A DNA stretch of 27,797 nucleotides, from positions 1 to 27,797 of IMG/VR virus record IMGVR_UViG_3300035688_000057, one strand, 5' to 3'. The stretch is from a virus. Shown here in pieces: positions 5,885-9,301 of the stretch. Both the position numbers and the translations under genes were made by a program. Each line of letters begins with the position of its first letter. Position 1 is the first letter of the stretch. Below the pieces are notes generated by a model, which did no database searches, was not told where the DNA came from, and worked only from the letters and a program-made list of their open reading frames with translations.

Positions 5885-6083
5885 TACGCCGCCCCGAGTG
5901 TTTCAGGGCAAGTCAAGAAACAAAAAAACCCCCGCGACGTTGCGACCCGTCGCAGGGGTTATGTATCTTGGCCCGCTACCGCTCCCGCTGGCCGGCAGGA
6001 ACGGGCGTTCGCCCTGTTAGATTGTCAAAGTGCCCCGGCTGTTTAGGCGCGGGCCGGGGCCAGGGACACGCTTGCTTCTCAAG
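5885..6083. other. Gap between portal gene and tRNA
   Basis: This stretch holds the terminator at 5922-5960 and several GC-rich small hairpins (for example GGGCG-AAC-GCCC around 6003-6016). On the minus strand there are isolated TTGACA and TTGACT boxes (about 6030 and 5914), but neither has a convincing -10 at 16-18 bases, so I call no promoter here. Confidence 0.5.
5922..5960 (-). terminator. Intrinsic terminator after the packaging operon
   Basis: Read on the minus strand, AACCCCTGCGAC pairs with GTCGCGGGGGTT (12 pairs with one G-T wobble) around a 10-base loop, followed by seven T residues. It separates the terminase/tRNA transcript from the portal gene, which starts 38 bases downstream. 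Confidence 0.9.
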
Positions 6084-6157
6084 CGGTGGGGGCAGGATTT
6101 GAACCTGCGGCTCCACCTTATGAGGCTGGCGAGGACTCCGGACTCCTCCACCCCACT
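6084..6157 (-). tRNA. tRNA-Met(CAU), divergent
   Basis: A 74-base cloverleaf can be drawn on the minus strand. The acceptor AGTGGGG pairs with CCCCAC plus C (six of seven pairs, A1-C72 mismatch). The D stem is GAGG/CCTC, the anticodon loop CTCATAA gives anticodon CAU, and the anticodon stem CCAGC/GGTGG has one G-G mismatch. The T arm is GCAGG-TTCAAAT-CCTGC. CCA is not encoded. The 1-72 mismatch and the A11-U24 pair resemble initiator tRNAs, but the three G-C pairs of initiator anticodon stems are absent. It begins four bases after the stop of the 95-aa gene and ends before the terminator. Confidence 0.65.
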
Positions 6158-6161
6158 CATC

Positions 6162-6449
6162 TTACGCCTGCTGGGGACCCTCCTGGGGAACCGTTATCCC
6201 CAGCCGCTTCACGACGGCCGTCATCACACGCCAGGCTTCCTCAGCAATCCGCTCGGGAATCTGCTCTCGATCCGCATAGGTGTCCGTATGGGCTAGAATC
6301 GCCCCCGCCACTACCGGAACCAAGTTCAAGTAGCAACTTACCACCATCTGGTGGGCCACGGCCTGCTGTTGTTGATCCTGCTCCTGCTGCGACTGCCCCT
6401 GCCGGCCAAGTAGTGGAACTTGAAAAGGAATCCGAGGAGGTTGCATCAT
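6162..6449 (-). CDS. Small Gln-rich phage protein downstream of terminase
   Basis: This 95-residue protein starts at ATG 6449, whose A is the last base of the terminase TGA (TGATG overlap), so it depends on terminase translation. Residues 1-15 are Pro-rich (MMQPPRIPFQVPLLG), followed by a Gln-rich run to about residue 31. The rest is helical (VVSCYLNLVPVVAGAILAHT, then IAEEAWRVMTAVVKRLG). I recognise no family. A head-completion or terminase accessory role is possible from its place between terminase and portal. Confidence 0.75.
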   Translation of the reverse strand: MMQPPRIPFQVPLLGRQGQSQQEQDQQQQAVAHQMVVSCYLNLVPVVAGAILAHTDTYADREQIPERIAEEAWRVMTAVVKRLGITVPQEGPQQA

Positions 6450-9301
6450 CACCCCACTCTCAAAACGTCTTCGATGGTTGCCTGCGGACGGTCGTCGCTC
6501 CACTGCCGTCGATCCTCCTCTTCGCGCCGTTGTCGCCACCCGAATGAGCCATACTCTACATCTTGCCTGTCCTCCGTGCCCCTGTCAAGCCCAATTATTG
6601 GGCGGTCCCTGCACAATAAATAGGCAACCCCCCCGGCAATGCAGTTGTGAACGAGAACTCCCTGGGCAAAATACTCTGGCGTTTCATCGACACTAAGATT
6701 ATACACACGCTGGGGGGTGCCAAGCCTTTCGATTTTCTGAACATAGACGGCCTCGGCATTTCGGCGAGCACGTCTTGGCTTTGTCGTACTTGTCCGTGCG
6801 AAACTCTGTGCCGCAAATAACGCACACCCGCGCTTCGTGATCGAGCCTATTTTTCCAACGATATCCGTCACGACACGCCGGACTACAGAACTTCGTGCGG
6901 TGTTTGCGGAATGTCTGATACTCTTTTCCGCAATGCGCGCACTTGTGGTTGTACATGACCGAATGGCTGTACTGCCGCAGATGCCTGCCGTTTCTATGAA
7001 TCTTCCCGTGCTCTGAATAGCTGATGCACTCAAGATTCGAGATATCGTTGTTAAGAACGTCGCCATCCTTGTGATGAACAAGGAACCCGCCCGGAACAGG
7101 CCCGTTGTAATGCTCCCAGACGGCAACGTGCAGCGCAATTTTCTTGCCGTTGCAGTAGCTTCGCCTGCCCCAAAAATATCGCCTCCGATGCTCCTGCTTA
7201 GCGCTCGGGTTGCGGTGGTATCTCCTGCCGTTGAAAACGACCGTCTCCGTGGACGGACTGCGCTTGTACACTCTTCCGCGAACTGTTTCTGTGTCCATGC
7301 CAATAGTCTATCGTATACACACAGCGATTGCAACTCCACCCATGAGTTATTTTCAGTCCAAACTGGATGGTTTCCAGTCCCAGTCAAAGTGCGACCGTTG
7401 GAAAGGGTCAATCTGAGTACCGGCTCAAAACCGGTTTTCCCACAAATCTGTACTGGGCGAAGTCCATCCCGAGTCCACACCATGTCCCCCGGAATCAAGT
7501 CTTCGATCGGCTTTTCCCCGCAGTCCGTCAGGATCATCGTCCCTTCGATCAGGCACCTGTCCCCGTGTGCTTTCTCCAACTCTCCTGCTGATTTTGTAGG
7601 CCGGTGGATGATCTTGCCTCCCTCCCACTCGTACTCCCCACACTCCCGAATCAGGTCCAGCGAACGCGACACAAACGCCCCACCCTCAAACGCCAGCCCC
7701 AACTCCTCGAACAACTCCCCCTTGTCCTCGTCAGACCCGTTATACCACCCCAGCTTGCGCGTTTTACGCCGACTACCTATCTCGTCCACGTCACGATAGT
7801 AGACGTTCTGGTAGTCGCACTTCTCGACCACCACCTTGCCGAACTCGGTTCCAGTCGGACCCGATGCCTCCCAACCCAAGTAGGCGTTGTGCAACCACTT
7901 TGACAGACCCACCACCATGCGGGCGAACTTCGTCGCCGGCCACCCCTTGGCGGCCCACTCCAACACCTGCTCGCCCGTCGCCATGTCCACACCACAGGCC
8001 GCCGAGTTGCTCGAATAGTTCCCAGACCCGCCCGCTGAGATGTCACAGCCGATGCCATACCGGCTCCGCGGCACCGCGTTGTCCCCCCCCGGCCTGAACC
8101 AGAGTTTCAGCGACCCGTGCTCCTGCCGGATCAGCCCCTTCAGTTCCAGAGTCTCCTGGTCGAACACCGCCTTGCCCTGCCAGATCGGCGGCCGACAGCA
8201 CTCCCTCCGCATCCGGTCCAGAACCTCAGTGTCGAAAACCTTCCCCACCGCGCCGCGTGGATTCCGGTCCAGCTCCTTGGCGATCAGCCGCGGCGTGGCC
8301 CCCTTCCGCAAACACCGCATGATGTACCACGGAGAAAGCGTCTTGTCCCCAATCGAGTATCCCCGCCGCTCCAGGGCCTTGATCTTCTCCCCGTTCACAG
8401 CCATCCAGCCATCAACCTCCGCCTGTTCAGACGGCCGCACCGCCCGGGCCTGCCCCTCCTCCACCCTGAACGCCAACCGGCTCTGAACCGGGTTGTCCCG
8501 CCAGTCCAACACCAAATGCTTCCCCGTCGAGTCCGGGGCGTTCGCCGCCTCCCAAAACACCCCCGAGTCACAGCCAAACGTAGAAACCAGAAAGATGACG
8601 TTGGTCACGTCATGCAGGCTGTCCATGACCGCCCGGTCCTTCCCGCCCTTCACAAAGTCCAAGGCGCCAATCTCGTCGCAGACGAACACGCTCTTCCTGC
8701 CACCACGACCCACGTCCTGCCCCGCAGAGTACCCCACAATCGTCCCACCCTTCTCAGGATTCAAAAACGAGTGATCCGAAAGTGACCGATGCCGGCTAAA
8801 GTCAAATCCCTCCGGCAGCATCCATACCGGCAGCCGCTCCAACGCCCAGTTGACCTTCCAGAGCAATGTGTCACTGTCCGTGGCACTATCCACCAACCTC
8901 TCGTTCCGCGTCACCAACCCCGCCGAAAACATCGAGTCCCGCAGCCACCGACGGATAATGAGATTCAGGTAAATGTACGTGCCCCCCTGCGCCCGTGACT
9001 TGTCCAACAGCACGTCCATCGGCAACTCAGACGCCAACGCCTCGTCAATCGCCGCGTCCATCTCCAAGATCACCGGAACTTGGTGTGTCCAAGGCACGAA
9101 AGGCTTAACAGGAAACTGAGACCGCGGCTCAAAAACCCAACCGGCGAATGCAAAAAAGAAGAGCACGTCCTCAAACGCAGCCTGCTTCAACGCCTCCTGC
9201 ATCTCCACGTCATGCAGCGCGGCACGCCCCATCCGAGCCCGCCAACGCAGATTGGCCGCCGGGTCTTTGGGAATCAGGTGGTAGAAGGGAGAAATACTCA
9301 C
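6449..9301 (-). CDS. terL: Terminase large subunit interrupted by an intein
   Basis: The packaging motor hydrolyses ATP to pump DNA through the portal and cuts concatemers. The ATPase part shows a terminase-type Walker A (DKSRAQGGT, residues 100-108), Walker B (VFVCDE, 205-210) and coupling motif (VST, 239-241). The RNase H-like nuclease part shows Asp420 (GIGCDIS), Glu478 (GWEASGPTG) and Asp581 (KAHGDR). Residues 583-886 are an intein; after splicing the host protein is 646 residues. Start is GTG 9301, directly after the upstream stop, with GGAGG four bases before it. The 950-codon frame has no stop even across the segment where a second protein is encoded in another frame. Confidence 0.9.
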   Translation of the reverse strand: MSISPFYHLIPKDPAANLRWRARMGRAALHDVEMQEALKQAAFEDVLFFFAFAGWVFEPRSQFPVKPFVPWTHQVPVILEMDAAIDEALASELPMDVLLDKSRAQGGTYIYLNLIIRRWLRDSMFSAGLVTRNERLVDSATDSDTLLWKVNWALERLPVWMLPEGFDFSRHRSLSDHSFLNPEKGGTIVGYSAGQDVGRGGRKSVFVCDEIGALDFVKGGKDRAVMDSLHDVTNVIFLVSTFGCDSGVFWEAANAPDSTGKHLVLDWRDNPVQSRLAFRVEEGQARAVRPSEQAEVDGWMAVNGEKIKALERRGYSIGDKTLSPWYIMRCLRKGATPRLIAKELDRNPRGAVGKVFDTEVLDRMRRECCRPPIWQGKAVFDQETLELKGLIRQEHGSLKLWFRPGGDNAVPRSRYGIGCDISAGGSGNYSSNSAACGVDMATGEQVLEWAAKGWPATKFARMVVGLSKWLHNAYLGWEASGPTGTEFGKVVVEKCDYQNVYYRDVDEIGSRRKTRKLGWYNGSDEDKGELFEELGLAFEGGAFVSRSLDLIRECGEYEWEGGKIIHRPTKSAGELEKAHGDRCLIEGTMILTDCGEKPIEDLIPGDMVWTRDGLRPVQICGKTGFEPVLRLTLSNGRTLTGTGNHPVWTENNSWVELQSLCVYDRLLAWTQKQFAEECTSAVRPRRRSFSTAGDTTATRALSRSIGGDIFGAGEATATARKLRCTLPSGSITTGLFRAGSLFITRMATFLTTISRILSASAIQSTGRFIETAGICGSTAIRSCTTTSARIAEKSIRHSANTARSSVVRRVVTDIVGKIGSITKRGCALFAAQSFARTSTTKPRRARRNAEAVYVQKIERLGTPQRVYNLSVDETPEYFAQGVLVHNCIAGGVAYLLCRDRPIIGLDRGTEDRQDVEYGSFGWRQRREEEDRRQWSDDRPQATIEDVLRVG
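6644..7555 (-). mobile_element. Intein in the TerL nuclease domain (304 residues)
   Basis: The N-terminal splice block begins with Cys1 (CLIEGTMILTDCGEKPIEDL). Block B is LTGTGNHPVW with its His at intein residue 63. The C-terminal blocks are RVYNLSVDETPEYF and QGVLVHN, with the penultimate His, terminal Asn and a Cys as first C-extein residue. All class-1 splicing residues are therefore present and I expect splicing. Recognisable splicing sequence is only about 87 residues at the N side and about 36 at the C side. The roughly 180 residues between (Arg/Ser/Thr-rich, for example RSFSTAGDTTATRALSRS) look like no endonuclease, because the nuclease is encoded there in a different frame. The insertion follows the catalytic HGD motif, a highly conserved homing site. 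Confidence 0.92.
6699..7298 (-). CDS. HNH homing endonuclease nested out of frame inside the TerL intein
   Basis: This 199-residue protein lies entirely inside the intein but in the other frame (shifted -1 relative to terL). It has an HNH_3-type core (ALHVAVWEHYNGPVPGG, HHKDGDVLNNDISNLECI, then SEHGKIH). Two zinc-knuckle pairs follow: CAHCGKEYQTF with FCSPAC, and CVICGTEF with CSPKC. An in-frame TAG four codons upstream of ATG 7298 rules out extension upstream. The TAA at 6701-6699 lies inside the codons of intein block F. No Shine-Dalgarno is visible before the ATG, so how it is translated is unclear. Expected role: cutting intein-free terL alleles so that the intein is copied in. Confidence 0.88.
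   Translation of the reverse strand: MDTETVRGRVYKRSPSTETVVFNGRRYHRNPSAKQEHRRRYFWGRRSYCNGKKIALHVAVWEHYNGPVPGGFLVHHKDGDVLNNDISNLECISYSEHGKIHRNGRHLRQYSHSVMYNHKCAHCGKEYQTFRKHRTKFCSPACRDGYRWKNRLDHEARVCVICGTEFRTDKYDKAKTCSPKCRGRLCSENRKAWHPPACV

Follow-up and report, generated by a model that had tools for sequence, protein, structure and literature searches.

Inteins are usually described as a splicing domain combined with an in-frame endonuclease, and those without a recognisable endonuclease are classed as mini-inteins and presumed to be immobile. Other arrangements of nuclease and intein are known, and the fractured genes with split inteins of Dassa et al. (2009) reportedly carry a free-standing nuclease between the two halves. 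The HNH homing nucleases include the intron-encoded I-HmuI (PDB 1u3e). Closer to the present case in host gene are the TerL1-b and TerL1-c inteins of mycobacteriophages, which carry an in-frame LAGLIDADG endonuclease and occupy sites in the ATPase domain of the terminase large subunit (Kelley et al. 2016, PMC5050341). Closer in coding arrangement is the ShiLan domain, in which a phage methylase harbours an out-of-frame HNH and the authors find no intein or intron motifs (2025, PMC11855218).

The locus described here lies in a 27,797-base virus record from IMG/VR, the whole of which is referred to below as the window. Its terminase large subunit (TerL) gene is interrupted by an intein of the Hint type, and the DNA of that intein also encodes an HNH protein in the -1 frame. 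The element shares with TerL1-b and TerL1-c a TerL host, a Hint splicing domain, an endonuclease placed between blocks B and F, and (as predicted here) homing, but its nuclease is an HNH in another frame, and most sites of its class are in the TerL nuclease motif. Like the fractured genes, it has an independent endonuclease ORF between intein halves, and TerL versions of such genes with the same HNH family occur in phages CL2, Vibrio 1.238.A, and BL3; in those genes, however, the host frame is broken and splicing is in trans, whereas the present gene has an unbroken frame and its intein would splice in cis. The likeness to I-HmuI is one of HNH fold and homing role, and the difference is that I-HmuI belongs to an intron, while the present protein is encoded inside an intein and has two C-terminal zinc ribbons.

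The ShiLan domain offers the most instructive comparison. In both systems an HNH is hidden in the non-host frame of an insertion that is open in the host frame, the host frame is +1 of the HNH, and homing is inferred. Without splicing motifs, the ShiLan insert is predicted to stay in the protein, whereas a complete Hint intein surrounds the HNH described here. Moreover, the layout of the ShiLan HNH is Zn-HNH-Zn, and the profile used in this work gives it no more than 19+17 bits; the two are not of the same HNH subfamily. The ShiLan host is a non-essential methylase rather than TerL. In the open-access literature, to which the search was confined, no description was found of an intein whose endonuclease is read in a different frame, and ShiLan was the only near match. 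The remark in the initial annotation that no well-described example exists thus holds for inteins in that literature, but not for out-of-frame HNH genes at large, given ShiLan.

A complete intein in the terminase gene

The features of the locus are collected in Table 1. The N-extein aligns along its length with TerL homologues at ~50-81% identity, and the alignment also crosses the splice junction HGDR/CIA (the slash marks the junction). TerL relatives with an empty site read HGDR/CIA contiguously, with the insert absent, and the boundaries of the intein are therefore exact; one such intein-free TerL, at locus L046, is 81% identical to that of the window. The insertion is thus a precise, in-frame one into a conserved protein that has intein-free homologues. 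A tRNA-Met (CAT) gene lies just downstream of TerL, at 6083-6157 on the minus strand.

Table 1. Coordinates of the TerL gene, its intein, and the overlapping HNH gene in the window.
Feature	Position	Strand	Basis
TerL (terminase large subunit) ORF with intein; exteins are residues 1-582 and 887-950	6449..9301	-	TerL homologue alignment
304-aa Hint intein in TerL nuclease motif region	6644..7555	-	Intein_splicing, Hint_2, empty sites, AF2
N-terminal splicing half (blocks A, B), residues 1-99	7259..7555	-	AF2 pLDDT about 95 over most
Intein-frame filler, residues 100-257, predicted disordered, overlaps HNH gene	6785..7258	-	pLDDT <50 throughout
C-terminal splicing half (blocks F, G), residues 258-304	6644..6784	-	TIGR01443, AF2
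+1 Cys, first C-extein residue	6641..6643	-	many intein-free TerLs natively have Cys here
HNH_3 homing-endonuclease-like gene, two C-terminal zinc ribbons, 199 aa	6699..7298	-	Pfam HNH_3 E 6.6e-16
In-frame TAG of HNH frame, four codons before ATG; blocks upstream fusion	7308..7310	-	sequence

The sequence and structural hallmarks of an intein are found in the host frame, including a predicted Hint fold, Cys1 (7553-7555), block A (CLIEGTMILTDCG), a TxxH block B (GTGNH), block F/G (VYNLSVDETPEYFAQGVLVHN), and a terminal HN in block G that ends with Asn304 (6644-6646) and is followed by the +1 Cys. Pfam recovers Intein_splicing (E 1.2e-8) and Hint_2 (E 1.3e-7). In an AlphaFold2 model, the two outer parts of the intein come together as a confident Hint fold, with the halves at pLDDT ~95, and a Foldseek search with this model matches solved mini-inteins (the Mtu RecA intein and gp41-1); the AlphaFold2 models of this study were built on alignments of the window and the fetched loci only.

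Since group I introns often encode HNH_3 nucleases, and I-HmuI, the closest PDB relative of the present one, is itself intron-encoded, it could be proposed that the insert is a group I intron with an HNH ORF, removed at the RNA level, and that its similarity to Hint domains is incidental. This is highly improbable, as the insert retains every Hint motif in the host frame, has the exact Cys1, HN, and +1 Cys ends, and is open throughout, and the confident Hint model likewise argues against such an intron.

A free-standing HNH gene in the second frame

The HNH gene runs from an ATG at 7298 to a TAA at 6699-6701, lies wholly inside the intein, and is read with a 2-nt offset (the -1 frame) relative to the TerL/intein frame, which remains open across it. 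Its stop codon falls within the DNA for intein block F. The initial annotation had reported a separate ORF of this kind, with its own start and stop and with an upstream TAG barring fusion to the intein, and each of these points was borne out by the sequence and the HNH_3 match. The arrangement departs from that of a canonical homing intein, whose nuclease is fused in frame between blocks B and F: the HNH occupies the -1 frame here, and the intein frame encodes a region modelled as disordered. It also departs from that of a fractured split intein, in which the host frame is interrupted and the halves are on separate ORFs, since a single ORF is open from one end of the gene to the other.

The encoded protein has the appearance of an intact nuclease. 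Its catalytic motif is complete (HH..D..NN..NL..H..H), it matches phrog_15471 (E 1.9e-33), and the catalytic His/Asn residues and eight cysteines that are invariant in 34 HNH homologues are all present. The structural model is confident (pLDDT 88.7), and I-HmuI is both the sole solved homing nuclease found by profile (E 0.0013) and the top, though weak, fold match. The start of translation is less clear: the ATG at 7298 has no good Shine-Dalgarno sequence (duplex +0.3 kcal) and a GTG at 7271 scores better (-2.6), so the start codon used in the window is uncertain. A sigma-70-like promoter was looked for near the gene and not found. With so weak an ATG, expression of the window's HNH is the least certain step in the scheme proposed below.

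Recurrence of the two-frame layout

The first relatives, from a tblastn search of phages, were found in Tetrasphaera phage TJE1, Acinetobacter phage Highwayman, Rhodobacteraceae phage LS06, and a gut phage, all with the same layout. IMG/VR was then scanned without regard to frame, six aligned HNHs serving as the query, and at least 80 loci were recovered; 80 of these, the six starting cases, and a few more make up a set of about 86. Among the 86 loci listed, 70 have the N and C blocks of the intein in one open TerL-intein ORF that spans the HNH; the intein frame is +1 of the HNH in every one of these 70, and none has an in-frame HNH. One further locus, L156, has an HNH with a stop-free +1 frame, but the flanking N and C blocks do not share a frame, and this locus is regarded as a recent frameshift or an error.

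Selection on the nuclease was avoided in a second, nuclease-blind search by the intein C-block (the N-block has no stretch conserved enough to serve as a query), which gave at least 80 intein-selected loci. Here, 70 of the 77 complete inteins listed carry an HNH in the -1 frame, while the remaining seven are mini-inteins or, in one case, a 395-aa intein. Finally, a scan of genomes found at least seven bacterial or archaeal genome contigs with an overprinted intein, assigned to Gammaproteobacteria, Nitrospiraceae, Clostridium, a betaproteobacterium, Elusimicrobia, and two archaeal genomes (labels as given, from MAG bins). For example, L147 (CP070724) is an overprinted TerL intein on a 2.3-Mb contig labelled as a Thermoplasmatales archaeon chromosome, which, if the label is taken as given, suggests a provirus and a spread to archaeal viruses.

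In total, the overprinted inteins collected fall into at least 115 sequence clusters. All 63 inteins of a non-redundant set begin with Cys, and nearly all end with N followed by C or S. In an alignment of 62, the host ORFs match the Terminase_3, 6N, and 6C families. The insertion points cluster at the TerL nuclease motif (DH/xxDAxRY and neighbours), and a small number lie instead at RNase H motif I or Walker B; in a Clostridium MAG (L151), for instance, the intein is at a Walker B-like sequence (FVDELDEL) and not at the nuclease motif. Four of the 62 host ORFs also match LAGLIDADG_3, and some of these may hold a second, conventional intein beside the overprinted one.

This recurrence bears directly on whether the layout could be an error of sequencing or assembly. 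A normally fused HNH could formally have been displaced in this contig, an IMG/VR record, by a pair of compensating indels near 6700-6760 and 7270-7300, and the initial annotation had offered a displacement by two shifts as an alternative to a separate homing endonuclease gene in another frame of a splicing intein. However, the equal offset is found in >100 independent contigs and in sequenced isolates, and almost all loci have stops in the HNH frame shortly before the HNH begins. Far from the window's copy being unique among relatives with the HNH in frame, the -1 nested HNH sought in other TerL inteins is shared by every listed relative with an intact intein, and no in-frame ancestor or relative was found among the 80 HNH-selected, 26 genome, and 80 intein-selected loci listed. 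Displacement as an error is thus excluded by recurrence, its probability being vanishingly small. As to the deeper origin of the arrangement, an ancient displacement by indels would look the same as the insertion of a free-standing HEG, but the loci listed include no in-frame ancestor.

Constraint on both frames and the fixed offset

An open frame of this length had been taken to suggest selection in the initial annotation, on a chance near 3 in 10,000 with equal base use. That figure is too strong. When the synonymous codons of the HNH gene are shuffled, with the HNH protein and codon use held fixed, the intein frame of the window stays open in 12% of shuffles (p about 0.12, not significant). 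For the window alone, the open frame is weak evidence, since HNH genes of this kind naturally have few stops in their +1 frame.

The argument from selection does stand for the class, where a chance open frame is rejected. Across the 63 non-redundant loci, a set defined by an intact intein ORF but drawn from a scan that was not so selected, the intein frame has 0 stops against 159 expected from synonymous shuffling, whereas the third frame has 1235 against 1315 expected. Free-standing HNH homologues, beside an intact TerL or elsewhere, have 2-12 stops in the frame equivalent to that of the intein, as do the fractured versions (mostly 6-12). The HNH frame is constrained as well: the -1 ORF reaches a median length of 212 codons, where 67 would be expected for a given intein frame, and in related pairs (which are not independent of one another) substitutions at HNH codon positions 1, 2, and 3 number 672, 544, and 1097. 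Over the same bases, the window is 63% identical to L066 in the HNH frame and 34% in the intein frame, and the corresponding values for L179 are 67% and 48%. As the changes fall mostly at position 3 and identity is higher in the HNH frame, it is the amino acids of the HNH that are conserved, while the intein frame is mainly held open.

The fixed offset itself follows a simple rule. A stop in the +1 frame of the HNH requires a codon ending in TA followed by A or G, or one ending in TG followed by A. Such codons mostly encode hydrophobic residues that these nucleases seldom use, and this frame is therefore stop-poor, with about 2.5 stops expected per locus compared with about 21 (~eight times as often) in the other frame. 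We take it that only the +1-of-HNH offset could readily stay open, and that stop-codon geometry accounts for its constancy. The HNH of Mycobacterium phage ShiLan (L172, 6510-7100) is offset from the frame of its methylase host in just this way, and such agreement in an unrelated host fits this explanation.

A probable homing intein encoded in two frames

The locus very probably represents a homing intein with splicing and homing encoded in two frames of one DNA, and a widespread class of TerL inteins. A separate HEG in another frame of a splicing intein, as first put forward for this locus, is thus the reading best supported, by its recurrence in a fixed offset. In the TerL frame, the two Hint halves and a disordered linker of ~160 residues would form a mini-intein-like domain with a predicted ability to splice itself out, after which the essential TerL would be intact. 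The -1 frame would be translated from a start codon internal to the shared mRNA, giving a free-standing HNH nuclease with zinc ribbons. This nuclease would presumably cut the uninterrupted nuclease-motif site of terL, and the intein and HNH would be copied in by recombination. Selection would hold the intein frame merely stop-free, and the HNH frame would retain its amino acids.

Separate internal initiation is favoured over frameshifting by two features of the HNH starts. Shine-Dalgarno sequences are enriched there (-6.2 vs -3.7 kcal, p 1.3e-9), as exemplified by L002 (GAGGTGATAAAATG), and across the 63 loci a stop in the HNH frame precedes the HNH homology by a median of 11 codons, a geometry to which the window conforms. 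Programmed -1 ribosomal frameshifting, by which an IntN-HNH fusion would be made and the HNH's own start left unused, would suit both the invariable -1 position of the HNH, which is the frame that such a shift reaches, and the weak start signals at some loci, including the window. The proximity of the stop nevertheless leaves little room for a slip site, start codons with a Shine-Dalgarno sequence are enriched, and the offset is already accounted for by stop-codon geometry, all of which makes frameshifting improbable.

Mobility, decay, and related forms

The composite appears to have moved between divergent hosts as a unit. L066 shares the window's insertion site, and its N-extein is 32% identical to that of the window, while its IntN and HNH are 69% and 63% identical; transfer of the composite is implied by an intein and HNH far closer than the TerL. 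The much closer TerL of L046, at 81% identity, lacks the intein. Such movement has not been unrestricted. Among 54 loci, HNH similarity correlates no less well with N-extein similarity (Mantel r 0.62) than with IntN similarity (0.51), and movement has therefore been mostly among related TerLs.

Loss of the nuclease can also be traced. Four mini-inteins of 136-156 aa (L225, L254, L233, and L195) retain short scraps of the N-terminus or zinc ribbon of the HNH in the -1 frame, and they are apparently decay products of overprinted inteins, with the form that nuclease loss by in-frame deletion would be expected to give. It might accordingly be asked whether the window's HNH is a dead relic, left as an open frame in an intein that now only splices. 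Besides these clear relics, the weak start site of the window and the loss of the second zinc ribbon from the HNH of L066 would be in keeping with this. Yet all the HNH and zinc residues are intact in the window, the HNH is the better conserved frame in comparisons with both L066 and L179, and relics such as L225 and L254 look quite different, so that a relic is rather unlikely.

HNHs of the window's family are also found between the halves of interrupted TerL inteins and free-standing beside TerL. Broken TerL genes include L061 (Lactobacillus phage CL2), L095-L097, L101, L123, L124, L127, L150, L173 (Vibrio phage 1.238.A), and L175 (Brochothrix phage BL3). In these, the N half of the intein is on the first ORF and the C half on the second, with an HNH of the same family (a remnant in BL3) between them, and they are apparent natural split TerL inteins, to judge from their ORFs.

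It is conceivable, as a more ambitious and distinctly tentative proposal, that overprinted two-frame inteins form a separate, self-maintaining class, that inteins at the TerL nuclease motif of bacterial and archaeal viruses are for the most part built this way, and that the overlap is itself under selection. The overlap would be selected because an indel that kills the nuclease also breaks the frame of the essential TerL; the nuclease could then be lost only by in-frame deletions (or by nonsense in its own frame), which is how the mini-intein relics look.

Implications

Many phage inteins that seem to lack a nuclease and carry a featureless linker may in fact have all that homing requires, including a nuclease in a reading frame passed over by annotation, and they would then fall outside the usual picture of the immobile mini-intein. 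The class also provides >100 natural cases of long, same-strand overprinting in which both frames are constrained. It connects the overprinted, fractured, free-standing, and decayed states of a single nuclease family, and the origin of partnerships between inteins and nucleases becomes directly testable. Finally, these loci are a source of new cis and split inteins, and of zinc-ribbon HNH nucleases aimed at a conserved viral site.
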